From: a virus
Reading direction: 5' to 3' (one strand)
Virus record (IMG/VR): IMGVR_UViG_3300030099_000111
Span: 1-50,072 of that record
Length of the DNA stretch: 50,072 nucleotides
Below are positions 10,541-39,052 of the stretch, piece after piece; the first letter of the stretch is position 1; every line of letters starts with the position of its first letter. The notes under the pieces were generated by a model. The model had not been told where the DNA came from. It was given only the letters and a program-made list of their open reading frames with translations, and ran no database searches. The position numbers and the translations under genes are program-made.

Positions 10541-11218
10541 TTAATCCTCACTGTATAGATTGTTAAACACTCGTTGCGTATCCCAAACGTACTCTACGTC
10601 TTGCTTAGAGTGAAATATGTTTTGGTTAGGTTTAAAGTCAGGAGCACCTTCGCCAGCTTCAAACCATGCAGGGTGAGTTACCCTCACTCTATTATTAGGC
10701 AACGCAACCATGTTGCCAGTATATTCACCTGCATCTAATAACTCCAACACGTGTGATTGTTTGTGCTGCGCTGGGTCATCTGCTACCTCGCTGTCTGTGT
10801 AGTCAACAGTGAAGTAATACTTTGCAGGATAAAACTCATTGTCTATCTTAGCTATCCACGGTGCAGGGCTTGCCCTGTTAATCACGTAAACGGAGTGTTC
10901 ATGCGACATGCAATCCCACGGCTGCGCTAAGTAAGGTGGAAGTTCTTGGGGCCACTCCTCTAAAGGGGTATCTGCAACGAGCGCAGTTAGCGGCATTCTA
11001 GCCCACATTGCTCCACCATGCACGTTAGGGCTATCTTCGTCATCATCGGACTCATAGCCAGTAAATATTACTTGAAAGCTTAGTGTCCTGTTAGGCATAG
11101 TCGTAACTGCTACAACCATACAATGCAAGAACTCGCCATGATATTCCTGCATATTCTTTGTGTATTCTCTTCTTACCCACGCTTTGAAGTAGGGTATATT
11201 ACTTTGTAGATACGCCAT
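10541..11218 (-). CDS. Conserved-type phage protein, unknown
   Basis: The start is placed at 11218 (MAYLQSNIPYFKAWV), giving 225 residues; a longer frame to 11266 overlaps the upstream gene more. The protein is globular in composition, with many Trp, Tyr and Pro, and contains GEFLHCMVVAVTTMPNRTL and GAMWARMPL, segments I recall from marine cyanophage and pelagiphage proteins of unknown function. Its place among structural genes suggests a virion or assembly role. Confidence 0.65.
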   Translation of the reverse strand: MAYLQSNIPYFKAWVRREYTKNMQEYHGEFLHCMVVAVTTMPNRTLSFQVIFTGYESDDDEDSPNVHGGAMWARMPLTALVADTPLEEWPQELPPYLAQPWDCMSHEHSVYVINRASPAPWIAKIDNEFYPAKYYFTVDYTDSEVADDPAQHKQSHVLELLDAGEYTGNMVALPNNRVRVTHPAWFEAGEGAPDFKPNQNIFHSKQDVEYVWDTQRVFNNLYSED

Positions 11219-11504
11219 CTTTTTTGTGTTTCCTTCGCAAATCTGCTTTAGCTTGTTTGAAGACATTTGCTATAGCTGTCTTCCCCATAACTTTAGCACG
11301 TTGTTCAGCTACTGTCAATATCTGAATCTTTCTTGCGTAGGGTTTCTTGATGCGTTTTACTTTAGCTACTGTAGCTCTAGCGTCAGCCATAGTAGCAAAC
11401 TTAATAGATACTGTATCTTTAGGGTTTTCGTCTGTGTATAGCCTACGTCCAGACCCTTTAGGTTTTTTACCTGTTCCTACTTTTGGGTCTTTTTGCTTTG
11501 CCAT
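11199..11504 (-). CDS. Small basic conserved-type protein, unknown
   Basis: A 101-residue, Lys-rich protein beginning MAKQKDPKVGTGKKPKGSGRR. The N-terminal segment GTGKKPKGSGRRLYTDENPKDTV is one I recognise from many phages (possibly DUF6321); the rest is helical and basic. It overlaps both neighbours, so the local genes are translationally coupled. Function unknown. Confidence 0.65.
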   Translation of the reverse strand: MAKQKDPKVGTGKKPKGSGRRLYTDENPKDTVSIKFATMADARATVAKVKRIKKPYARKIQILTVAEQRAKVMGKTAIANVFKQAKADLRRKHKKDGVSTK

Positions 11505-12110: not shown

Positions 12111-12467
12111 TTATTTTCTTGGATCAAGCATATCCATATGATCACGGTTCATAAACTTCAAACTGTTCTCCATTAAAGCCATGCGTTGTTGCAAAGCAGT
12201 AATAGCTCCTATCGTTTTTGTTAAGTTTTCTGTTTCTTCCCAAAGTTCTTCTATCTCTTCAAACGCACCATCAATGTAGGCCATGTTGTCCAGCACATCA
12301 CGTTTAAGATTAACGTTATCCTCTACAGCCATCTTACTAGCAAACTGAGATACAGTTTCTTCTAGGCTTGATATAGTAGCAGCTTGTTGTGATACCCACC
12401 ACACACCACCTGCTAGTTGTGCGCCCATTGCTACTACGAGTGCTATAGGTAGTTTCATATTATCCAT
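12111..12467 (-). CDS. Membrane-anchored coiled-coil protein, unknown
   Basis: About 118 residues with an N-terminal hydrophobic span (MKLPIALVVAMGAQLAGGVWW) and a long acidic coiled coil (about residues 30-105). One span plus a periplasmic coiled coil is the plan of inner-membrane spanins, though such proteins also occur as virion-associated membrane proteins. No partner outer-membrane lipoprotein is adjacent. The start could also be at 12473, overlapping the upstream gene by 14 bases. Confidence 0.6.
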   Translation of the reverse strand: MDNMKLPIALVVAMGAQLAGGVWWVSQQAATISSLEETVSQFASKMAVEDNVNLKRDVLDNMAYIDGAFEEIEELWEETENLTKTIGAITALQQRMALMENSLKFMNRDHMDMLDPRK

Positions 12468-12732
12468 CTGCATATTCCCTTTTTCTGTCGGGGTCTAGAA
12501 CTTCGTGTCGTTCTAAATGTCCTTCTAAGTACATAGCTCTTTCTACATGATCCAATGTGTACCACTCTCCAGTACGATTGTAGATTGCTTCTCGTACATA
12601 GAACACATCCGACTTGGGTATGTGTACTTTCCTCATAGCATACGAGTTATTAGAGGCTAATGCATTATAAAAGTCTTCTAAAACACTTTCACTTTGACAT
12701 AGTTGTACTCTTTTATTTTTCATTGTCAACAC
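12460..12732 (-). CDS. First gene of leftward late block, unknown
   Basis: The 90-residue frame starts at a GTG at 12732, with an ATG at 12723 as the alternative (MKNKRVQLCQ). It is mostly polar and probably helical, with IYNRTGEWYTLDHVERAMYLEGHLERHEV in the C-terminal half. It directly follows a terminator-like hairpin, so its expression depends on readthrough from the leftward promoter. A regulatory role is possible but nothing in the sequence proves it. Confidence 0.55.
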   Translation of the reverse strand: MLTMKNKRVQLCQSESVLEDFYNALASNNSYAMRKVHIPKSDVFYVREAIYNRTGEWYTLDHVERAMYLEGHLERHEVLDPDRKREYADG

Positions 12733-18024: not shown

Positions 18025-18229
18025 AAAAGGTATGCTTGATAGTCAGATAAAAGCTATAGAAAACTATCACAACAATATGCGTCACATACTCAGCGATGTA
18101 GAAGAGATGAATGACTTGTGGCTATCTCAGATTAGAGATATGAGTAAGGCTTGGTACGAGATAGGCAGAGAGTTTGATCTAGACAACAGTTCATTTTGGG
18201 AATGGCAGAATAAACAAGATGGACAATAG
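17951..18229 (+). CDS. Helical protein, unknown
   Basis: A 92-residue protein with GAGAGGA upstream. It has a charged helix (TPEERALKFQREQEERKAR) and a second helical half rich in Trp. It overlaps both neighbours. Function unknown. Confidence 0.5.
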   Translation: MTPEERALKFQREQEERKARIAKAKKGMLDSQIKAIENYHNNMRHILSDVEEMNDLWLSQIRDMSKAWYEIGREFDLDNSSFWEWQNKQDGQ

Positions 18230-18416
18230 TGTAAGACAGGAGGCACAAGCCCAAGCAGAGCAAGCGTATGATTTGTTTATACTGTGGAGTAAACGCACAG
18301 TGTATGCTATCATTGCTACTCTGCTACTGCTGGCAAGCTGCGACTTTGGCACAGACAAGGAGACAGGCAGTCAGTACAACGGTGCAGTGTATGCACCACG
18401 TAACATAGGAGAGTAA
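18219..18416 (+). CDS. Small membrane protein, possible lipoprotein
   Basis: A 65-residue protein with a hydrophobic span at about residues 28-40 ending in LLLLASC, which has the form of a lipobox. The N-terminal part before it is about 25 residues, longer than usual for a lipoprotein signal. After Cys the tail is short and polar. It may be a lipoprotein or a one-span membrane protein, perhaps active in superinfection exclusion or lysis; unproved. Confidence 0.5.
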   Translation: MDNSVRQEAQAQAEQAYDLFILWSKRTVYAIIATLLLLASCDFGTDKETGSQYNGAVYAPRNIGE

Positions 18417-21615: not shown

Positions 21616-22845
21616 ATGGAAAATGGAGAGTTAGCCTTACTTAGGACACTCATGGATAAGGAGTTCTATGACAGTAACAAAGGCATACACACGCCCGACA
21701 AACTGTTTACTAAAGATGTTCGTAAGGTAAAGAGAACTATAGACTACGCTATGAGTCAGTTCGATAAGGATCTAAACTTCTCAGAGTTAGAGGGGTTGTT
21801 CTTTACACGAGAGACACTGACCACAGCTAACAAAGAGTCTTACAAAAGATTGTTTGATAAGCTACGGCAAGAGAAACCCATGAATCAAGAGGTAGCTCAA
21901 GAAGTTATGTCTAACCTGTTCCAACAAGTAGTAGGTGAAGAGGTGGCTAACTTAGGCTTTGACTACGTGAATGGTGAGAAGAATACACTGGAGCCACTAC
22001 GTAACATAATCACAGACTATCAAGATAACTTCCTGCCCAACTTAAAAGTTGAGTGGGGTGATATATCTATCGACAATCTGTTGGTGGCTAATGAGATACA
22101 ATCTAAGTGGCAGTTTAACATACCGTCACTGCAGCGCAAGGTAGAGGGCATATCAGGTGGACATCTAGTTTTAGTGGGCGCTAGACCTAACACAGGCAAG
22201 ACATCCTTCCACGCATCTCTGATTGCCTCTGAGCGTGGTTTTGCTAGACAGGGTGCTAAATGTATCGTCTTGTGTAATGAAGAGGACTACACTCGTGTCG
22301 GTGCTAGATATCTCAGTGCTGCATCTAATATGCCTATGGAAGAGATCAAGGACAACTACGCTCTTGCATCCACAAGGTACAAGCCAGTGTACGACAACAT
22401 ACGAATAGTAGATAGCACTGGCAAGGACATGGTGTGGGTTGAGGCTGTAGTAAAGCATCACAATCCTGACATCGTAGTGCTAGATATGGGTGACAAGTTT
22501 GCTAACAAGACAGGTGCAGACTCCCACGTGTATCTCAAGGATGCAGCCATACACGCCAGAAACATAGCCAAGCAATACGAGTGTGCAGTTATCTGGATGT
22601 CTCAGCTATCAGCAGAAGCAGAGGGTAAGATATATGTAGATCAGTCTATGCTTGAGGGCAGTAAGACAGGTAAAGCTGCTGAGTGTGACTTGATGATACT
22701 AATATCTAAGAACCCACAAGTAGAGGGTGAGTATGAATCAGACACACAGCGACACTTGAACGTAGCAAAGAACAAACTAAAGGGTGGATGGCATGGGGTT
22801 GTCCACTGTCAGTTAGATGGAGAGAGAGCAAGGTACTCAGCATGA
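21616..22845 (+). CDS. Replicative DNA helicase (DnaB/gp4 type)
   Basis: The 409-residue protein has a helical N-terminal part (1-140) and a RecA-type ATPase domain: Walker A GARPNTGKT (188-196), Walker B DIVVLDMGD (Asp290), and WMSQLSAEAE as the Gln-containing sensor. It would unwind DNA at the fork in a hexamer and work with the separate primase and the polymerase that follows. AAGGAGAG precedes the start, and its last codons overlap the polymerase start by four bases. Confidence 0.92.
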   Translation: MENGELALLRTLMDKEFYDSNKGIHTPDKLFTKDVRKVKRTIDYAMSQFDKDLNFSELEGLFFTRETLTTANKESYKRLFDKLRQEKPMNQEVAQEVMSNLFQQVVGEEVANLGFDYVNGEKNTLEPLRNIITDYQDNFLPNLKVEWGDISIDNLLVANEIQSKWQFNIPSLQRKVEGISGGHLVLVGARPNTGKTSFHASLIASERGFARQGAKCIVLCNEEDYTRVGARYLSAASNMPMEEIKDNYALASTRYKPVYDNIRIVDSTGKDMVWVEAVVKHHNPDIVVLDMGDKFANKTGADSHVYLKDAAIHARNIAKQYECAVIWMSQLSAEAEGKIYVDQSMLEGSKTGKAAECDLMILISKNPQVEGEYESDTQRHLNVAKNKLKGGWHGVVHCQLDGERARYSA

Positions 22846-24884
22846 GAAGAGTAGTAGATGTAGAGAACTCAATAACTCTACGAGATGGTAAGATATTTAA
22901 TGATCCTTACGAGCCAAGCAACACACTTACTGAGGTGGGTGTGCTGTGCTTAGACACAGGAGAAAAAAAACTATTACCGTTTGACCACAAAGAAGCCACA
23001 GATCAACATAAGAAAAACGATTGTGTTTTACAGAGAATGCTAGACAACACAACGCTACTGATAGGACATAACCTACAGTATGATCTAGCCTGGCTTTGGG
23101 CTAACGGTTTTAAATATGATGGTGACATATATGACACAATGCTTGCAGAATATTTACTTTTACGTGGACAAAAGCAACCACTAAGTTTAGAGCAGTGCGC
23201 TATCAGACGTAACTTACAATATCAAAAAGACGATACGCTCAAGGCGTACTATAAGAAAGGATACAACACAAATGAAATACCACTTGACGAACTCAGCCAT
23301 TATCTTGAGTATGACTTGCTTACTACTGGGGAGTTGTACAAAGCTACCGAAGCTGACTTTTCAACCCCAGCCTCCGCTTCCATTCGAGCAGTCAAAGACG
23401 TTACCTTTAGAACCTGCAAAGTCCTCACAAGAATGTCAATGGCAGGAATCAGGGTGGATAGACATGCCCTCGAACACGTCCGTGATAGATTCGAGCGAGA
23501 GCGAAAAGAAATACTTGATAGACTGCAAGCCACCACACGAGAGTTGATGGGTGGCACACCTATTAATCTTAACTCACCAGAGCAGATGTCGTGGGTTATA
23601 TTTAGCCGTAAGCCTAACGATAAGAAAGAATGGGTAGGCATCTTTGAATATGTAGATGACAAAGGTTTTAAGGATGCAGTAAAAAAGAATAGCAAGATGA
23701 TCTTTAAAACAAAAGCAAGCACTTGCCCTACTTGTAATGGTGGTGGTAAAGTACACAAAACAAGAAAGGATGGCACACTACATAAGATACCAAACAAATG
23801 CAAAGCCTGTGACGCTAGGGGCTTCCTACTCACAGCAACAAACGAAATGGCAGGGCTTGGGTTCTTTCCACCAAGTAAGAAGTGGGTCAGTGCCAATGGC
23901 TTCGGTGTAGGTAAAACAAACCTAGATGCACTGATAGCCACAGCTAAAAACAACAACATGGAGAAAGCAAATGAGTTCCTTCAAGACCTTAAAAGGCTTA
24001 GTGCTATTAGCAGTTATCTTAGTAGTTTTGTGGATGGTATTATCACCAACTGTAAAACAAATGACAAACTACACATCAACCTTACCCAGCATATCACCAG
24101 TACAGGTAGATTCTCTGGAAGAAACCCCAACATGCAAAACATGCCAAGAGGAGGAACCTTCCCAATAAAACGTGTGTTTATCTCAAGATGGAAGGGTGGC
24201 AAAATTATTGAGTCAGACTTTGCTCAACTTGAGTTCAGAACGGCTGCGTTCTTAGCACAGGACAAGACAGCAATGCACGAGATAGATACAGGATTTGATG
24301 TACACTCCTACACTGCAAAGGTTATCAGTGACGCAGGACAACCTACAACTAGGCAGGAAGCAAAGGCACACACCTTCGCCCCTCTCTTTGGCGCTACTGG
24401 ATATGGTAGATCAAAAGCAGAGGCTGCGTATTACAAAGAGTTTGTTGAGAAGTACAAAGGCATAGCTAGTTGGCATACCAGATTAGGCAATGAGGCTGTT
24501 AACGAGGGTAAGATAACCAACGTCAGTGGCAGACAGTACGCATTCCCTGATGTCATACGTAGAGAGAACGGCACTGTGTCGCACTTTACTATGATCAAGA
24601 ACTACCCTGTGCAAGGTTTCGCTACAGGAGATGTCGTACCAGTTGTATTGATAGAACTTGACCGTTTGTTACAGCCTATGCACTCATGTTTAGTCAACAG
24701 TGTCCACGATAGTATGGTAATTGACACACACCCTAATGAAATAGATGATGTGCTAGGTATAATTAGTTTGATTAACACTAATCTAAATGATATGATTCAA
24801 AAAGAATACAATATAAAAGTTAACGTACCTTTGTTATTAGAATCAAAAATAGGAGACAACTGGCTTGACACAAAGGACGTTTAA
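22842..24884 (+). CDS. polA: DNA polymerase, family A, with DnaJ-type zinc insertion
   Basis: The 680-residue protein begins at 22842 in ATGA overlap with the helicase. The 3'-5' exonuclease motifs are DVE (residues 6-8), HNLQYD (Asp81) and YLEYD (Tyr154, Asp158). Residues 295-298 (CPTC) and 320-323 (CKAC), in CxxCxGxG-like context, form a DnaJ-type zinc segment between exonuclease and polymerase. Polymerase motif A is SDFAQLE (Asp459), motif B is RQEAKAHTF (Arg504, Lys508, Phe512) and motif C is HDS (622-624), where most family members have HDE. The DnaJ segment is the hallmark of HMO-2011-type phages. Phe at the position equivalent to E. coli 762 has been linked to lytic replication, while the genome also carries an integrase. 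Two open frames inside this gene are listed separately. Confidence 0.96.
   Translation: MRRVVDVENSITLRDGKIFNDPYEPSNTLTEVGVLCLDTGEKKLLPFDHKEATDQHKKNDCVLQRMLDNTTLLIGHNLQYDLAWLWANGFKYDGDIYDTMLAEYLLLRGQKQPLSLEQCAIRRNLQYQKDDTLKAYYKKGYNTNEIPLDELSHYLEYDLLTTGELYKATEADFSTPASASIRAVKDVTFRTCKVLTRMSMAGIRVDRHALEHVRDRFERERKEILDRLQATTRELMGGTPINLNSPEQMSWVIFSRKPNDKKEWVGIFEYVDDKGFKDAVKKNSKMIFKTKASTCPTCNGGGKVHKTRKDGTLHKIPNKCKACDARGFLLTATNEMAGLGFFPPSKKWVSANGFGVGKTNLDALIATAKNNNMEKANEFLQDLKRLSAISSYLSSFVDGIITNCKTNDKLHINLTQHITSTGRFSGRNPNMQNMPRGGTFPIKRVFISRWKGGKIIESDFAQLEFRTAAFLAQDKTAMHEIDTGFDVHSYTAKVISDAGQPTTRQEAKAHTFAPLFGATGYGRSKAEAAYYKEFVEKYKGIASWHTRLGNEAVNEGKITNVSGRQYAFPDVIRRENGTVSHFTMIKNYPVQGFATGDVVPVVLIELDRLLQPMHSCLVNSVHDSMVIDTHPNEIDDVLGIISLINTNLNDMIQKEYNIKVNVPLLLESKIGDNWLDTKDV
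23272..23547 (+). CDS. Possible embedded lipoprotein (spanin-like) gene inside polA
   Basis: A 91-codon frame lies in the +1 frame of the polymerase gene. It starts with Lys and a hydrophobic core (AIILSMTCLLLGSC) ending in the lipobox LGSC (Cys22), followed by a Pro-rich stretch (KLPKLTFQPQPPLPFEQ) and a polar tail with two Cys. AAAGG lies about 11 bases upstream. A short Pro-rich lipoprotein overlapping another gene is the plan of Rz1-type outer-membrane spanins. In this stretch the polymerase frame uses C-ended codons (ACC, GTC, TCC, CTC) unlike its surroundings. Caution: the antisense strand is also open here, and the shift could reflect recombination. Confidence 0.4.
   Translation: MKYHLTNSAIILSMTCLLLGSCTKLPKLTFQPQPPLPFEQSKTLPLEPAKSSQECQWQESGWIDMPSNTSVIDSSESEKKYLIDCKPPHES
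23971..24168 (+). CDS. Possible embedded single-span membrane protein gene inside polA
   Basis: A 65-codon frame in the same +1 frame of polA starts at 23971, seven bases after GGAG. It has a basic N-terminus, one strong hydrophobic span (about residues 9-24, GLVLLAVILVVLWMVL), a polar region and a CKTC pair before an acidic tail. Its codons (TTA, GTA, CTA, CCA, ACA) are those the phage prefers, while the polymerase frame here uses AGG, CTT and ACC. It would be a membrane protein with the tail outside. It could be a lysis protein; it could also be chance. Confidence 0.4.
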   Translation: MSSFKTLKGLVLLAVILVVLWMVLSPTVKQMTNYTSTLPSISPVQVDSLEETPTCKTCQEEEPSQ

Positions 24885-33600: not shown

Positions 33601-34362
33601 TCTCCTAGCTGCTCTACGTGCGGCCTCAAATCTTACCTTTGCTCTGGCTGCTTTTGCTGCACTTTCAGCAGCCCTAGTCATAGATGCTTTTGTGTAGCCA
33701 CTACCAGTAAGCTTCTTGATCATAGCCTCTGCTGCTTCATCGCCAGCTTTTTTAGCTGCTTCTTTAGTTGCACCAGACTGTGCTGCTCTCCTAGCTGCTG
33801 CTGCTACTGCATTTTTTATTGCTGCTTTACTAGCCTCACTCACACCCAACGCACCAGCCTTACCTGCAAAGCCTGTCACTAAGCCTAAGTAGTTTGTTGG
33901 ATCAGTTGCTACAGCTAGGATGTAATCCTTGACACCATCCACAGCCCCAAACACACCATCGTTTACAAAGACATTACCTAGACTGTCGTACAACTCGTAT
34001 GCTTCTTTTGCTGCTCTTTTAGTTTCGTCATCAGCTTTAGATATGTATCTAGCTTCACCTGCAGTTGCGACTATGTTAGTATTAAACCTACGCATACTAT
34101 CTACAAAGTCCTCCACTACAGTCTCAGCTTTGGCTGTCCTGTATGCAGCACCCTTCTTGCCTATCATGTAGTTACGTATCTTGTTTAACCTGTCTCTTCT
34201 GTACAAGTCTTGCTTTTTTAGTTTTTCTCCTTCACGAGTATCAGACTCAAACATATCATCAAATTGTGTGTTGTCTCTGTACTCAGGCACACCACTGTCT
34301 ATATCTTTAGACGCATCCGTTTCTATACCATACTCTTTATAAAAATCATTTAGTGTTGTCAT
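30676..34362 (-). CDS. Very large internal virion protein
   Basis: The 1228-residue protein is the last of the leftward block. It has an acidic N-terminus, a long Ala/Lys-rich helical region (about 165-260), further Ala/Gly-rich helical segments that could be amphipathic or membrane-inserting (about 310-345 and 530-620), and a charged C-terminus. Size and place at the end of the virion operon match ejected internal proteins of T7-like phages (gp15/gp16 role), which form a channel for DNA entry. No peptidase or glycosidase motif was seen. It overlaps the lysozyme-like gene by four bases. Confidence 0.65.
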   Translation of the reverse strand: MTTLNDFYKEYGIETDASKDIDSGVPEYRDNTQFDDMFESDTREGEKLKKQDLYRRDRLNKIRNYMIGKKGAAYRTAKAETVVEDFVDSMRRFNTNIVATAGEARYISKADDETKRAAKEAYELYDSLGNVFVNDGVFGAVDGVKDYILAVATDPTNYLGLVTGFAGKAGALGVSEASKAAIKNAVAAAARRAAQSGATKEAAKKAGDEAAEAMIKKLTGSGYTKASMTRAAESAAKAARAKVRFEAARRAARRATVEGGEVTLTKGRLKPRTIKFGMQQAGKKAVLQTTAIDSLLAGYQDVAIQDLYLDVGAQEKYSALQTGLSLALGGVAGGLHYTFGKADGLSGFAEAADMARAGTRGEEFPLKKFKAAKEELKKLKQSGADKATIKKQQRLVSKLQSEAIGKPLLAKESIDKAASEMKDAIKSWGEKVRSGKEELAKGEGNQIMPESLLSQIMLGYTTADKAASKGPMPIGGLAKIFNENNIKFSKKTKVSDVMTNLLQYMPEEELKEISKLFKKETSIDLGTTATLAVDLGDIIAATTSGAGSTLSVMAAVRRATDAGVVSGNEILATALEQKAVRDTLEQEGLLNVTKRAKGLGYAQNVWKRLLVSSPATTAANVAGFAQFYGGQGVADIFASGQLYIAGIGAASVGNKELSQELFRKSRVYRDIQTQKMKNFLDPLATYETFISLMDDIGDNKEFKGLLFETIGGGVERTAKRYNVDVNNPVIKNAEIFADASMTITGVRIQDTFTKSQMFMTELDKYVRLKHNKNLIDVLKSGDLEMLDDDVIGGAVDTTLRSVFSKDYTTDDQYLGAVARAVEQASNTPVLGTVIPFGRFMNNVVATAYQWSPLSFAGVASRIIKKEPGIKTNEAFARSLVGTSALVLAMQLDDERQKKGLGVNEIEMSGTVMDVRNVFPFSLFLVAGRVGNLTAKGETVPPELIEELGNQLAIGQVARDLQFGNDVFNAIDFFSSGGRGADLDALYKSLGNVAAGATRPLDALNRSIGFLADNDVAKDVRQADGFLPVFTQSSTKYFDNILEALIGESETLTGENLRVSSREGDIYDANPLARILGLNIKRGKTATEQAYTLANLQSWKQDQRSNIPTYDRLFNAGLAPMLEKRMQVLLSSKRFQDGDLEYKRGRVKYELKKARDQLRDYFDIPGSSAYLDQQRYRASTKGTKAQQKKAMRYMESLGVDAELKDFNFRELKTYESYIDHLNLKIKTGM

Positions 34363-34973
34363 TTTAGTGCTGCCTTTAATGCGTCAGAAAACTTAGTGCC
34401 AGGAGTTCCAAAGCCATCCTTAGTAACTTTACCTGTCTTCAACCACGATTTAGCTTTACCGTGTCCTTGATTGTGTGCGTACGCTAGTGCTGCTAGTTTA
34501 TCTTCTTTAGATAACTTTCTGTACTCAGGTGACACCATCATATATCTGTGATTTTGAGCAGTGTAAGCAGCAAAAGCTTTTTCTTGTAAGTCTACATTGC
34601 CTCTAAACTTTTCACGAGATTTAGTATCATGAGGTAGTTCTAGTCCTAACAATCTAGCCGCATCTATCTTAGCATCTTTACCTAACTGATACCTACCATC
34701 ATAGTGATCGTTAGCCCCACCCTTTGCGTGATAGTTACCAGATCCTCTTGATTCTATCTTAGCTAGTTCTTCTCTGTATATATCCCATGTGCTTTTGTTT
34801 ACGCCAAGTTTATCAGACACAAGATCATACACAGTATTTTGCCATGTAGGTTTTTTCTTTGGAGACATCAGCCCCTCTGGTTCCTCTCCCACAACTCTTC
34901 CTGGCATGTTTATCTCAACAAACTCAACAACTTTTCCTGGCATATCTATAGCTACCATGTTTAAAAAATCCTC
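34359..34973 (-). CDS. Lysozyme or lytic transglycosylase-like protein
   Basis: About 204 residues from 34973 (AGAGGA upstream). The core has ELAKIESRGSGNYHAKGG, then HYDGRYQLGKDAKIDAARLLG and LAALAYAHNQGHGKAKSWL, the order of a catalytic Glu, a G-x-Y-Q motif and helical tail seen in transglycosylase-like murein hydrolases. It probably opens peptidoglycan during DNA entry since it lies between internal virion proteins, or serves in lysis. A longer frame to 35066 would add a signal-like stretch but overlaps the upstream gene by 89 bases and has no ribosome site. Confidence 0.75.
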   Translation of the reverse strand, partial: EDFLNMVAIDMPGKVVEFVEINMPGRVVGEEPEGLMSPKKKPTWQNTVYDLVSDKLGVNKSTWDIYREELAKIESRGSGNYHAKGGANDHYDGRYQLGKDAKIDAARLLGLELPHDTKSREKFRGNVDLQEKAFAAYTAQNHRYMMVSPEYRKLSKEDKLAALAYAHNQGHGKAKSWLKTGKVTKDGFGTPGTKFSDALKAALK

Positions 34974-34977
34974 TATA

Positions 34978-36558
34978 CTATTCTTTTTGCATAAGCTGAT
35001 TGGTATCAGGGTGAATAAAGTAAGCACCAACAGGAAGATCTTTATACGCTTGATTCTTTTCTGCATTACTCATACTTTCTGGAAACCTAAAAGGATTATC
35101 TCTTGATGTTTCTTGTGGTTCTGTTTCAGTGATCTCAGGAGTTTCGCTTAACTTTCTACCAGTTTCAGGATCGTGAGTGTCACCAAATAGTTCATCCCAC
35201 TCATCAACTCTTAGATTATCAGGAACCTCTATTTCACCATTTAGTATCTGCTGTCTTGTTTCATAATCTAATGAAACACCAGTAAATCTGCTAGTAAAAG
35301 CATTTGGTCTAGGTGGCACTTTTATTTCAAGATCTAAACTGTCAGTAACAGGCACTTCAGGCGTTGGCACAGGAACCTCGTCACCTGCTAATTGTATGCT
35401 TGGTATTAGACCTTTTACAGCCATATCTTTTAACAAATCATCTACCTGTTCTTCAGGAACAGTTTGACCACCTATTATTAGACTTTTTACTTTTTTATCT
35501 GTGCCTATAATTATTTCATGTCTGACACCGTTGCTCATCACACTAAATTTATTTTCAATGTCAGTGGATATGGACGGTTTACTTTTTAGTATATCACTAA
35601 CTATTTTTCTTTCTAACTCCTCATCATCCAAACTACCGTACTCTAGCTCTCCTATCTGATCTTGACTAAGACCAGCATCTTCTAGTAAAGGACGCATCCT
35701 ATTTACATAAGTGGGATCACCCTGTGATGTAATTGATATCTGATTAAAAAGCATTTGTTGTTTATCTTTTGTAGCAAACTCCATAGCTAATGCTTGGATA
35801 TCTGCATCTGGATCTCCTCGCGCAGCTAGTTCTGCTTGTCTTAAATACTTACCGCTATCTCTGTTATCTTGAACCTGTGAGTCTATCGTGTTAATCATTC
35901 TGTTGAAAGCAGATGCTGCACTTGTTGGATCAAAGTCTCGTGTAGGTGTAAATGAGAAGTATGTGCCAGGTGCAACGCTATCGTAAGTCTCCTGTTTAGA
36001 TATCTCGTTTATATCCATAACAGAGTAGCCATCATAGAAAGCATCTTTATCTAGCTTTGCTCTTACTGAATCATCTAAGTCAATACCGAATATAGTTTTC
36101 ATTAGACCTCTTTGTGGGTCTTTGGTACTACCTAGTGATGGATCAGTAAGAGCAGTGTTCATCTGGTAGAACTCCTCCGAATCCACATCCCCATACGCAA
36201 AGTTCTCTGAAAAGTCTATCAAAGATTCTATCTCATACTCATCAAATTTTTGTCCTGATGTAAAGTTACGTCTTGCTGCTTCTTCTTGAGCAGACACAGA
36301 CAAGTCAAACAAACCTTTAGGCCCAGACGCAATAGCTGCGTTGATATGTTTATCCTCAAAGCCTAGCGCCCTCAGTCTTGCTATCTCAGACTTAGCTAAG
36401 TTACCTAGCTGTCTAAGTTGAGTTATCTTAGACTTACCTTCATCTGCTTTTTCTTTTAGCTCTCGTTTATATTCTCTGGCTTCGGCAACTCTTGTGTTAA
36501 TCTGCCTTGCCTGATCTTCCATAAACGCTGCAGCGAATGCCTTTGCATCAAATCCCAT
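34978..36558 (-). CDS. Putative internal virion protein
   Basis: A 526-residue, charged, largely helical protein with a coiled-coil start (about residues 1-70) and Pro-rich linkers near residues 390-420 and 460-495. It lies among internal virion genes. The C-terminus (YKDLPVGAYFIHPDTNQLMQ) resembles a segment of other phage virion proteins. Function inferred from place only. Confidence 0.55.
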   Translation of the reverse strand: MGFDAKAFAAAFMEDQARQINTRVAEAREYKRELKEKADEGKSKITQLRQLGNLAKSEIARLRALGFEDKHINAAIASGPKGLFDLSVSAQEEAARRNFTSGQKFDEYEIESLIDFSENFAYGDVDSEEFYQMNTALTDPSLGSTKDPQRGLMKTIFGIDLDDSVRAKLDKDAFYDGYSVMDINEISKQETYDSVAPGTYFSFTPTRDFDPTSAASAFNRMINTIDSQVQDNRDSGKYLRQAELAARGDPDADIQALAMEFATKDKQQMLFNQISITSQGDPTYVNRMRPLLEDAGLSQDQIGELEYGSLDDEELERKIVSDILKSKPSISTDIENKFSVMSNGVRHEIIIGTDKKVKSLIIGGQTVPEEQVDDLLKDMAVKGLIPSIQLAGDEVPVPTPEVPVTDSLDLEIKVPPRPNAFTSRFTGVSLDYETRQQILNGEIEVPDNLRVDEWDELFGDTHDPETGRKLSETPEITETEPQETSRDNPFRFPESMSNAEKNQAYKDLPVGAYFIHPDTNQLMQKE

Positions 36559-37179: not shown

Positions 37180-37623
37180 CTATTTAGTAAACCCAGCGCC
37201 AAAGTATAATCCTACTATGGCTGATACGATGTGTGTATCTAGTGGTGTGATTACAAAGCCTTTAGCCACTTTCCACTGTATAGCTTCATCTGGCCCAAAC
37301 AACCAGTTCATAATACCACCAGTTGCTTCTGTATATCCTACATAAACGCTGACATCAGGATACCACACTGCGACTAGTTTTGGCAAGACAATAATACTAA
37401 ATACTGCACCTAATGCTATTAATCTTCTAGTCCAAGCAAAGTGTTTGTCATCTTTGCCAGCGTTACGTGCTTCAGCTACGGCTTCTTTTCTAAAGTTAGC
37501 ACGTTGTAAAAGCATCTTGTTGTTAGCTTCTCTAGCCTTTATGGACTGCCCCCATATGGACATAACCCCACCTAACACGGTGGAGAAAAGCATAGTGATT
37601 AGTTCTAGTGGTAGACCCATCAT
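37180..37623 (-). CDS. Membrane protein, holin candidate
   Basis: The 147-residue protein has hydrophobic spans at about residues 5-25, 70-88 and 125-143, and a charged loop (IKAREANNKMLLQRANFRKEA) between the first two. Small proteins of this type occur next to endolysin or virion hydrolase genes in many marine phages and may be holins. Neighbours are the peptidoglycan-binding protein and structural genes. Confidence 0.6.
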   Translation of the reverse strand: MMGLPLELITMLFSTVLGGVMSIWGQSIKAREANNKMLLQRANFRKEAVAEARNAGKDDKHFAWTRRLIALGAVFSIIVLPKLVAVWYPDVSVYVGYTEATGGIMNWLFGPDEAIQWKVAKGFVITPLDTHIVSAIVGLYFGAGFTK

Positions 37624-37624
37624 G

Positions 37625-39052
37625 TTAGTTACCCCACGTTTCTGGATTGCCGATATTTATAAGCATAGGTGTTCCATCATCTTTACTTGAGTCTTTATAA
37701 TCTCTAGAGCCTAACAAAAAACCCATGTTGTGTGCAACATCTAGAAAACCTATTTTACCTTGTCTATATGCATTTGCTGTATCAATTACACCTTTTGCTG
37801 TAGAATATTTTTCTTCAAACTCTTCTGTGTCAAGAATAGGATATTTACCTTTTTTATTTGGTTCTACAGAGTAGTCAGTGTATATATTATAATCATATGT
37901 ATCTTTTACTATAACATCCCCATTATCTCTTTGTGTCAAAAATGTGTCACCCACAGAATAATAAGCTCTCATGGCAGGAGGTAAACCTAAAGGAGAATCG
38001 CTTTCACCAGTTGCAACTTTTAAAATATCTTTTGCTGTATCTATCTGCTGTCCTCTAGTTACTGTTCCCTCTCCATACCTATTCCACATTTCTCTAAAAT
38101 GATTTAACTCACCGTCTGTAAAGTATGTTTCATCTATTGTTTTTTTACCTGTCCATACATTTCTATCTAAACCAAATATATTTCTAAGTAAAAGTTTTGC
38201 AGGGGTTGACTTTACTAAATCTAAATATCTACCAGCAGTGGATTCACCAAAATTAAAAACGCCAGGAACAATACTAGCTTGTTTAGGAACTAAAGATTGT
38301 TGAGCTAAAAAGTCATCGTCATATATTACCTCGCCAGGCTCTAACGTTTCTACTTCAATCTCTGGTACACCTACTAACGCTGCTGTTGTGTTCTTACCTA
38401 CTATACCATCAACTTTTAAACCTTTTTCTTTTTGAAAAGCTTTGATGGCTTTCTTTGTTTGTGGACCTATAATACCATCTACCTTAATATTATAACCTGC
38501 ATCAACTAGCTTTTGTTGTATTTGTTTATTGTTTAACTCTACAGGTTCTTCAGGAAGCGGTTCTATAAATGTTTCAGGATCTGGTGGTCTACTTTCTGAC
38601 TGTTCTTTAGCTAACATAGCTGTCACATCAACTAGTAAATCATTTACTACTGGAGATTTTAATTTTTGTTGCATCACTTTCGGTACTTCATTACCAAACC
38701 TAGAAAGCCTTCTTACGGTGGTGCCATGTCTATCGTACAGAGAGTTTGGGTTTATTAGTAGCTCTTGCAGACTAGCACTATCTAACTCAACACCTTGATC
38801 CTCATCCTCGCTATCGTCATAGTTATTCATCATGGTAATAGTATCTGTGGTAGCTGCTATCGGGTCAGTTGGTTTGTCATCATCGTCATCATCATCTTCA
38901 GGTCTAGGCACAGGTCTTGGACTAGACATCAATCCTGTAGGTCTAGCTTTAGGACGCAGACTTGAGGTTACAGCACCTGATGGTTCTTTATCCTCTTGTC
39001 CAATACCCAAGAAGTTTTTGATTATTTCACCTAATCCTAATTGTTCAGCCAT
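37625..39052 (-). CDS. Peptidoglycan-binding virion protein
   Basis: A 475-residue protein. An Asp run (DDDDDDD, near residues 53-59) is followed by a helical stretch, then a PG_binding_1-type domain at about residues 172-230 (KLVDAGYNIKVDGIIGPQTKKAI and GLKVDGIVGKNTTAAL). The C-terminal 230 residues have Tyr/Asp-rich segments with no clear motif. It may anchor or carry a murein hydrolase activity for entry, or serve in lysis with the nearby holin candidate. Confidence 0.75.
   Translation of the reverse strand: MAEQLGLGEIIKNFLGIGQEDKEPSGAVTSSLRPKARPTGLMSSPRPVPRPEDDDDDDDKPTDPIAATTDTITMMNNYDDSEDEDQGVELDSASLQELLINPNSLYDRHGTTVRRLSRFGNEVPKVMQQKLKSPVVNDLLVDVTAMLAKEQSESRPPDPETFIEPLPEEPVELNNKQIQQKLVDAGYNIKVDGIIGPQTKKAIKAFQKEKGLKVDGIVGKNTTAALVGVPEIEVETLEPGEVIYDDDFLAQQSLVPKQASIVPGVFNFGESTAGRYLDLVKSTPAKLLLRNIFGLDRNVWTGKKTIDETYFTDGELNHFREMWNRYGEGTVTRGQQIDTAKDILKVATGESDSPLGLPPAMRAYYSVGDTFLTQRDNGDVIVKDTYDYNIYTDYSVEPNKKGKYPILDTEEFEEKYSTAKGVIDTANAYRQGKIGFLDVAHNMGFLLGSRDYKDSSKDDGTPMLINIGNPETWGN

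Follow-up and report, generated by a model that had tools for sequence, protein, structure and literature searches.

Overprinted lysis genes are known from small phages, among them the levivirus L gene and the lysis gene of phiCb5, which lies within the replicase gene. The ssRNA phage M likewise carries its lysis gene inside the replicase gene (PMC3561173). Known embedded o-spanins belong to the lysis cassette, where each is nested in its i-spanin gene (PMC6139136). Here we describe a predicted lipoprotein gene, ORF1, and a probable membrane peptide gene, ORF2, in the +1 frame of the DNA polymerase gene (polA) of an HMO-2011-type phage, represented by a 50,072-base virus record, the whole of which is referred to as the window. 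Lambda Rz1, an o-spanin encoded in the +1 frame of Rz, and ORF1 are both small lipoprotein genes nested out of frame in another gene, and Rz1-type o-spanins share with the ORF1 product a proline-rich, unstructured mature part and periplasmic cysteines. Unlike embedded o-spanins, ORF1 is nested in a DNA polymerase gene, has no i-spanin that we could find and shows no significant homology. The u-spanins (T1 gp11 type, and the ‘spanin2’ of phage CRP-345) are also lipobox lipoproteins, and they apparently share a role with ORF1, since one replaces the other in relatives; u-spanins, however, have a C-terminal transmembrane span and are encoded near the endolysin, and ORF1 has neither feature. With the lysis genes of phage M and phiCb5, ORF1 shares the arrangement of a short gene that is read out of frame within a gene for a polymerase. 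Those genes, however, belong to ssRNA phages and encode a single-gene lysis peptide, whereas ORF1 belongs to a dsDNA tailed phage of ~50 kb, overlaps a DNA polymerase and is predicted to encode an outer-membrane lipoprotein.

The sequence-only reading of this DNA knew of no lysis gene nested in a DNA polymerase gene, and our literature search, which covered few subscription papers, likewise turned up no tailed phage whose DNA polymerase gene was reported to contain a lysis or lipoprotein gene. Overprinted lysis and envelope genes are already known; a tailed-phage DNA polymerase as the host gene appears to be new, with no precedent known to us. Phages of the HMO-2011 type are a dominant and widespread group in the sea (PMC9038755); the paper on HMO-2011-type genomes makes no mention in its text of a spanin, a holin or an overlapping gene.

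The window polymerase is 55% identical in amino acids to that of HMO-2011, and its best named relatives are those of CRP-603, CRP-2 and CRP-207 (66-68% amino acid identity), with 100% coverage in each case. As the sequence-only reading had described, polA holds two ORFs in its +1 frame, the first with a lipobox and a proline-rich stretch and the second with a hydrophobic span (Table 1). They lie on the two sides of a DnaJ-type zinc segment, which we place at polA residues 290-329. For comparison, 190 distinct polA sequences from five viral-contig scans and from annotated phages were aligned by codon, placed on a tree and thinned at 96% identity to 123 representatives. We refer to the 17 sequences with at least 76% nucleotide identity to the window as ‘near’, and to these plus L125, L130, L131 and L133-135 (23 sequences) as ‘near+’. 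The ‘main’ set consists of 102 representatives and leaves out the L065 clade, HMO-2011, CRP-345, CRP-1, HTVC033P and their closest kin. In one of the contigs, the gene for the terminase large subunit (G009:C1:5401-6984) contains one in-frame TAA, which may be a sequencing error or mark a pseudogene.

Table 1. Position, strand and supporting evidence of the features discussed, in window coordinates.
Feature	Position	Strand	Evidence or remark
polA, family A DNA polymerase, HMO-2011-type	22842..24884	+	Pfam DNA_pol_A E=5.9e-48
Shine-Dalgarno-like site of ORF1, AAAGGA	23256..23261	+	10 nt upstream of ATG
ORF1, predicted overprinted lipoprotein gene, 91 aa, ATG start	23272..23547	+	few stops, lipobox codons kept constant, lowered synonymous variation (102 representatives)
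Lipobox of ORF1, Leu19-Gly-Ser-Cys22	23326..23337	+	Leu19 in 100/102, Cys22 in 101/102
Cys55 of ORF1, second conserved cysteine of the mature lipoprotein	23434..23436	+	kept in 100/102
Shine-Dalgarno-like site of ORF2, GGAG	23960..23963	+	7 nt upstream of ATG; invariant in the 17 near sequences
ORF2, probable overprinted gene for a membrane peptide with one span, 65 aa, ATG start	23971..24168	+	stop deficit and synonymous dip in near+
Second endolysin-like protein	34359..35066	-	phrog_5867 endolysin, E=1.4e-44
Holin-like membrane protein, 147 aa, late strand	37180..37623	-	hydrophobic span; PHROG match without assigned function
Peptidoglycan-binding endolysin-like protein	37625..39052	-	PG_binding_1 E=1e-17; PHROG endolysin

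The frame of ORF1 is kept open across the main set. Over the 58 codons from its start, the 102 sequences contain 12 stops, compared with 314 expected from the amino acid pairs of polA. A stricter null, in which polA codons evolved along the tree under site-specific amino acid preferences only and with an intact ORF1 at the root, gave a mean of 272 stops (range 194-391); both estimates rest on simplified codon models, and they agree. ORF1 is open in 98/102 representatives, a number that the simulations put at 4.4 on average and at 14 at most, and the stop count in the +2 frame of polA matches expectation. Changes that are silent in polA but alter ORF1 occur at a rate of 0.16, versus 0.30 elsewhere, in the near and the remaining sequences alike, and in the non-near sequences dNN/dNS is 0.72 within ORF1 versus 1.2 elsewhere in polA. 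The deepest synonymous dips of polA in the main set fall at 23250-23370 and 23388-23508, and reduced synonymous variation at ORF1 is found in all groups. Altered codon use in the stretches of both ORFs had been proposed from the window by itself, and was measured here as a drop in synonymous variation. The ORF1 signal covers sequences down to ~62% nucleotide identity, with the polA amino acids varying.

The start of ORF1 is similarly maintained. It is ATG in 91/102 representatives, with ACG or GTG in ~10%; most of the 11 that lack this ATG have another in frame 14 codons upstream, the exceptions being L236 and L278. A Shine-Dalgarno-like site (AAGGA, AGGA or AGGAGG) precedes ORF1 in 84/102, and the polA glycine codon at this site is GGA in 70/102, compared with 20% elsewhere. 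ORF1 spans 59-77 codons in most main sequences outside near+ and 86-97 codons in near+.

Conservation of the predicted lipobox extends to positions that are silent in the polymerase. The polA threonine codon behind Leu19 is ACT in 100/102 representatives, versus 29% elsewhere, and is ACA in all 15 members of the L065 clade. Cys22 overlaps a polA leucine codon that takes the form TTG or CTG in 101/102, versus 22% of leucine codons elsewhere. Simulations reached a maximum of 76 for Leu19 and for Cys22, against the 100 and 101 observed. The conservation of Cys55 is for the most part forced by a methionine of polA at that place, with a simulated expectation of 88 against the 100 seen. Roughly, the family consensus reads M[RK]Y...SLAFILG.....L.SCS...K.TT......P...SE.LPS.PVKPS.ECTCQESGWI..P. 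Stops in relatives, synonymous variation, and conservation of the start and the lipobox thus all came out in favor of ORF1 as an overprinted lipoprotein gene, as the sequence-only reading had proposed, and we regard it as very highly probable, from comparison of sequences, that ORF1 encodes a protein.

We next consider what this protein would look like. A lipobox widened to allow glycine at -2 and asparagine at -1 is matched by 96 of 99 ORF1 proteins, and 96 of the 99 have serine or threonine at +2, which under the enterobacterial +2 rule is a signal for sorting to the outer membrane. At least two extra cysteines are present in 96/99. The mature product has a median length of 48 aa and is 15% proline, compared with 3% in polA. 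The AlphaFold2 prediction, made with 42 sequences, contains a single N-terminal helix and nothing else structured (mean pLDDT 63). No second, C-terminal transmembrane span was found in ORF1, which places it outside the u-spanins. Pfam and PHROG searches returned no significant family for ORF1; a PHROG scan of 42 members gave five weak matches to Rz-like spanins (E ~0.01-0.2), and no other kind of PHROG family was matched, weakly, by as many members as the Rz-like spanins. A tblastn search of annotated phages found three polA copies, one weak match and nothing else. The ORF1 span has the highest hydropathy rank of the +1 frame and the ORF2 span the next; as the z-scores are overdispersed (sd 2.2), this ranking serves as support only. 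In the mechanism that we propose, ribosomes would initiate within polA, in its +1 frame, at a start that belongs to ORF1 itself, and the signal peptide of the precursor would be cut at Cys22, followed by lipidation. The lipoprotein would probably be sent to the outer membrane, given the serine or threonine at +2, and its mature form would be an unstructured, proline-rich tail with further cysteines. Translation, lipidation and location of the product are all inferred here from sequence features.

ORF1 has also been lost naturally. The L065 clade, L225 and L229 have many stops in the +1 frame and an ordinary polA protein. On the polA tree, the L065 clade sits inside the ORF1 clade, and it has 82 stops in the ORF1 frame, with 97 expected over 60 codons. 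Since the lineages that lost ORF1 keep ordinary polymerase proteins, the polymerase protein does not force the existence of ORF1.

The occurrence of ORF1 is complementary to that of a u-spanin. CRP-345 and CRP-1, which lack ORF1, each encode a lipoprotein with a C-terminal span adjoining the endolysin, annotated in CRP-345 as ‘spanin2 family’, which is a u-spanin. G007 (L172, an ORF1-minus member of the L065 clade) has a homologue with 66% identity, located close to genes for an endolysin and a holin-like protein, and another is carried by G030 (L225, a separate loss of ORF1). No homologue was found in nine long contigs with ORF1 (the window, G001-G006, G008 and G009), in the ORF1-bearing phages CRP-603, CRP-2 and CRP-207, or in the further ORF1-bearing contigs scanned, many of them fragments. 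The endolysin of the u-spanin cassette was found, among 51 records, only in G007, G010 and G030. The u-spanin is thus present in 4/6 genomes without ORF1 and in 0/12 near-complete genomes with it (Fisher p=0.005), a value that is optimistic because the genomes are related, to which three separate lineages contribute, and which involves metagenomic records of uncertain completeness. HMO-2011 and G010, both without ORF1, have no recognizable u-spanin either. These two encode similar short hydrophobic proteins (G010, L312 1974-2219; HMO-2011 gp57, L281 16024-16137), each a possible holin or other lysis factor.

Because ORF1 is absent where the u-spanin is present, it probably fills the spanin job, and this complementary occurrence is what leads us to favor a spanin-type role, with disruption of the outer membrane at lysis as the probable function of the ORF1 product. 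ORF1 would then be an o-spanin-like factor that takes the place of the u-spanin, which relatives have retained within a lysis cassette of the usual kind. The description of the protein as spanin-like, already offered by the sequence-only reading, is favored indirectly by the lipobox, the serine or threonine at +2, the unstructured proline-rich tail, the extra cysteines and the weak matches to Rz-like PHROGs, and most of all by the anti-correlation with the u-spanin; it was not matched by an i-spanin partner. The search for a cognate i-spanin, with an N-terminal span and a coiled coil, gave no candidate adjacent to ORF1 or co-distributed with it. The gene at 12111-12473 encodes a single span and a coiled coil with a weak match to Rz-like spanins (E=0.006) and is common to CRP-603, CRP-345, CRP-7, CRP-13, CRP-901 and CRP-4; as an obligate i-spanin it was rejected, being absent from several genomes with ORF1 and present in CRP-345, which lacks it. 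A ferredoxin-like protein (phrog_3704, host takeover) is encoded at 10541-11266, in the late-strand region. The holin-like protein of the window is a putative holin, by comparison with GTA-type holins. A pattern scan of CRP-603 for other lipoproteins found none that was convincing, and a laxer scan added one 39-residue frame. At 18219-18416 the window has a second small gene, whose product is lipoprotein-like or has a single span (LLLLASC). It occurs in 10/23 searched records, all of them near+, and may serve that clade in lysis or at the envelope.

A different reading of the same gene starts from its location. The neighbors of ORF1 are replication genes, and the holin and endolysin genes lie on the other strand; for this reason late expression of ORF1 is not obvious. 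It could instead be a real overprinted lipoprotein that is made early, together with the replication genes, and serves superinfection exclusion or another envelope function. Phage lipoproteins with such a role are known: T5 Llp is a small superinfection-exclusion lipoprotein made during infection, and so resembles ORF1 in being a small phage lipoprotein, and we know of no case in which its gene was described as overprinted. The position of ORF1 inside a replication gene of early or middle type, on the plus strand and away from the late lysis genes, suits this reading, as does the failure of the search to find an i-spanin partner. It leaves unexplained, however, why the u-spanin cassette is present in lineages without ORF1 and absent from those with it, and the fast sequence change and proline-rich disorder of ORF1 suit o-spanins equally or better. 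We therefore consider an exclusion or other envelope function rather unlikely, though the chief competitor, and retain a spanin-type role as the preferred reading of ORF1.

The evidence for ORF2 is confined more closely to the relatives of the window. In near+, the 65 codons of ORF2 contain no stop in any of the 23 sequences, where 57-61 would be expected and simulations gave 61 with a minimum of 17. The deepest 40-codon synonymous dip of near+ (z=-8.4) is at 24027-24147. The near sequences begin ORF2 at 23971 with ATG or TTG; the L125 and L133 groups begin it with ATG at 23965. Beyond near+, synonymous change in the ORF2 region runs at a normal rate (0.35 vs 0.31), and ORF2 is broken within 34 codons in 22/102 representatives, most of which retain ORF1; stops in the frame are still below simulation there (131 vs 383). 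Sequences with an open frame have a span hydropathy above simulation and those with a closed frame do not, a comparison biased by conditioning on openness. The proposal of ORF2 as a gene is thus upheld for the window clade and its nearest sisters, but elsewhere the start is not conserved and the frame is often broken. We lean toward ORF2 being a real gene in the window’s own clade, where it is a probable addition that may contribute to the same lysis step as ORF1, and we reject it as a gene of the whole group, given the normal synonymous rate outside the near clade and the common stops. Downstream, the main set has a third synonymous dip at 24216-24336 and a deficit of +1 stops at 24270-24444 (60 vs 170 simulated), and the window carries a 56-codon frame with a TTG start at 24295-24465.

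ORF1 and ORF2 might together form a two-component spanin, in which polA would contain the genes of the o-spanin and the i-spanin alike. Constraint on ORF2 is seen in the clade whose ORF1 has the longer C-terminus (86-97 codons), and in a scan of 11 genomes for N-terminal spans, whose hydropathy threshold was picked after ORF1 was known, ORF1 and the ORF2 frame were the two most widely shared families. ORF2 has ~35-40 residues past its span, however, with no evident coiled coil, and its disruption in 22/102 representatives that mostly keep ORF1, together with the lack of synonymous constraint outside the near clade, makes such a pair unlikely. We are equally doubtful of the broader scenario in which an outer-membrane lysis device wholly overprinted in polA, made up of ORF1 and ORF2, replaces the u-spanin cassette, with repeated switching between the two solutions.

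Two further explanations, which would remove the gene altogether, are each highly improbable. A structured RNA, a regulatory element or a recent recombination event could underlie the silent conservation, as two dips in the near clade are short (~20-40 codons) and there is a further dip at 24216-24336, but the signal is frame-specific, with stops avoided in +1 while +2 is normal, and the signal peptide, lipobox and cysteines are preserved to ~62% nucleotide identity as the polA amino acids vary. The antisense ORF at 23300-23959, which had been held to weaken the case for overprinting, is indeed open in the window, but it is not conserved, being stop-free in 3/17 near relatives and 0/85 others, and we attribute it to chance. 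A chance origin of ORF1 and ORF2 from the amino acid sequence and codon bias of the polymerase could be argued from that ORF, as an example of a long frame arisen by chance in this gene, from the fact that one open stretch of 91 codons among 680 is by itself no rarity, and from the overdispersed hydropathy z-scores; yet for ORF1 such an origin is refuted by the 25-fold stop deficit conditioned on polA amino acids, by silent threonine and leucine codons frozen precisely at the lipobox, and by loss of the frame in lineages with a similar polA protein.

Overall, the polymerase gene of these phages very probably contains an overprinted lipoprotein gene, ORF1; we find it reasonably probable that its product is o-spanin-like, and ORF2 was probably added in the window clade. 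In a survey of 677 phages, 91 were counted as spanin-less (PMC6139136). The arrangement described here suggests that phages of this kind may hide such genes out of frame within other genes. The DNA polymerase is a widely used marker in viromics, and its evolution in these phages would be shaped in part by an unrelated nested protein. ORF1 also offers a case in which a gene born by overprinting appears to take over a standard lysis function and to swap with it, with independent losses that can be compared.
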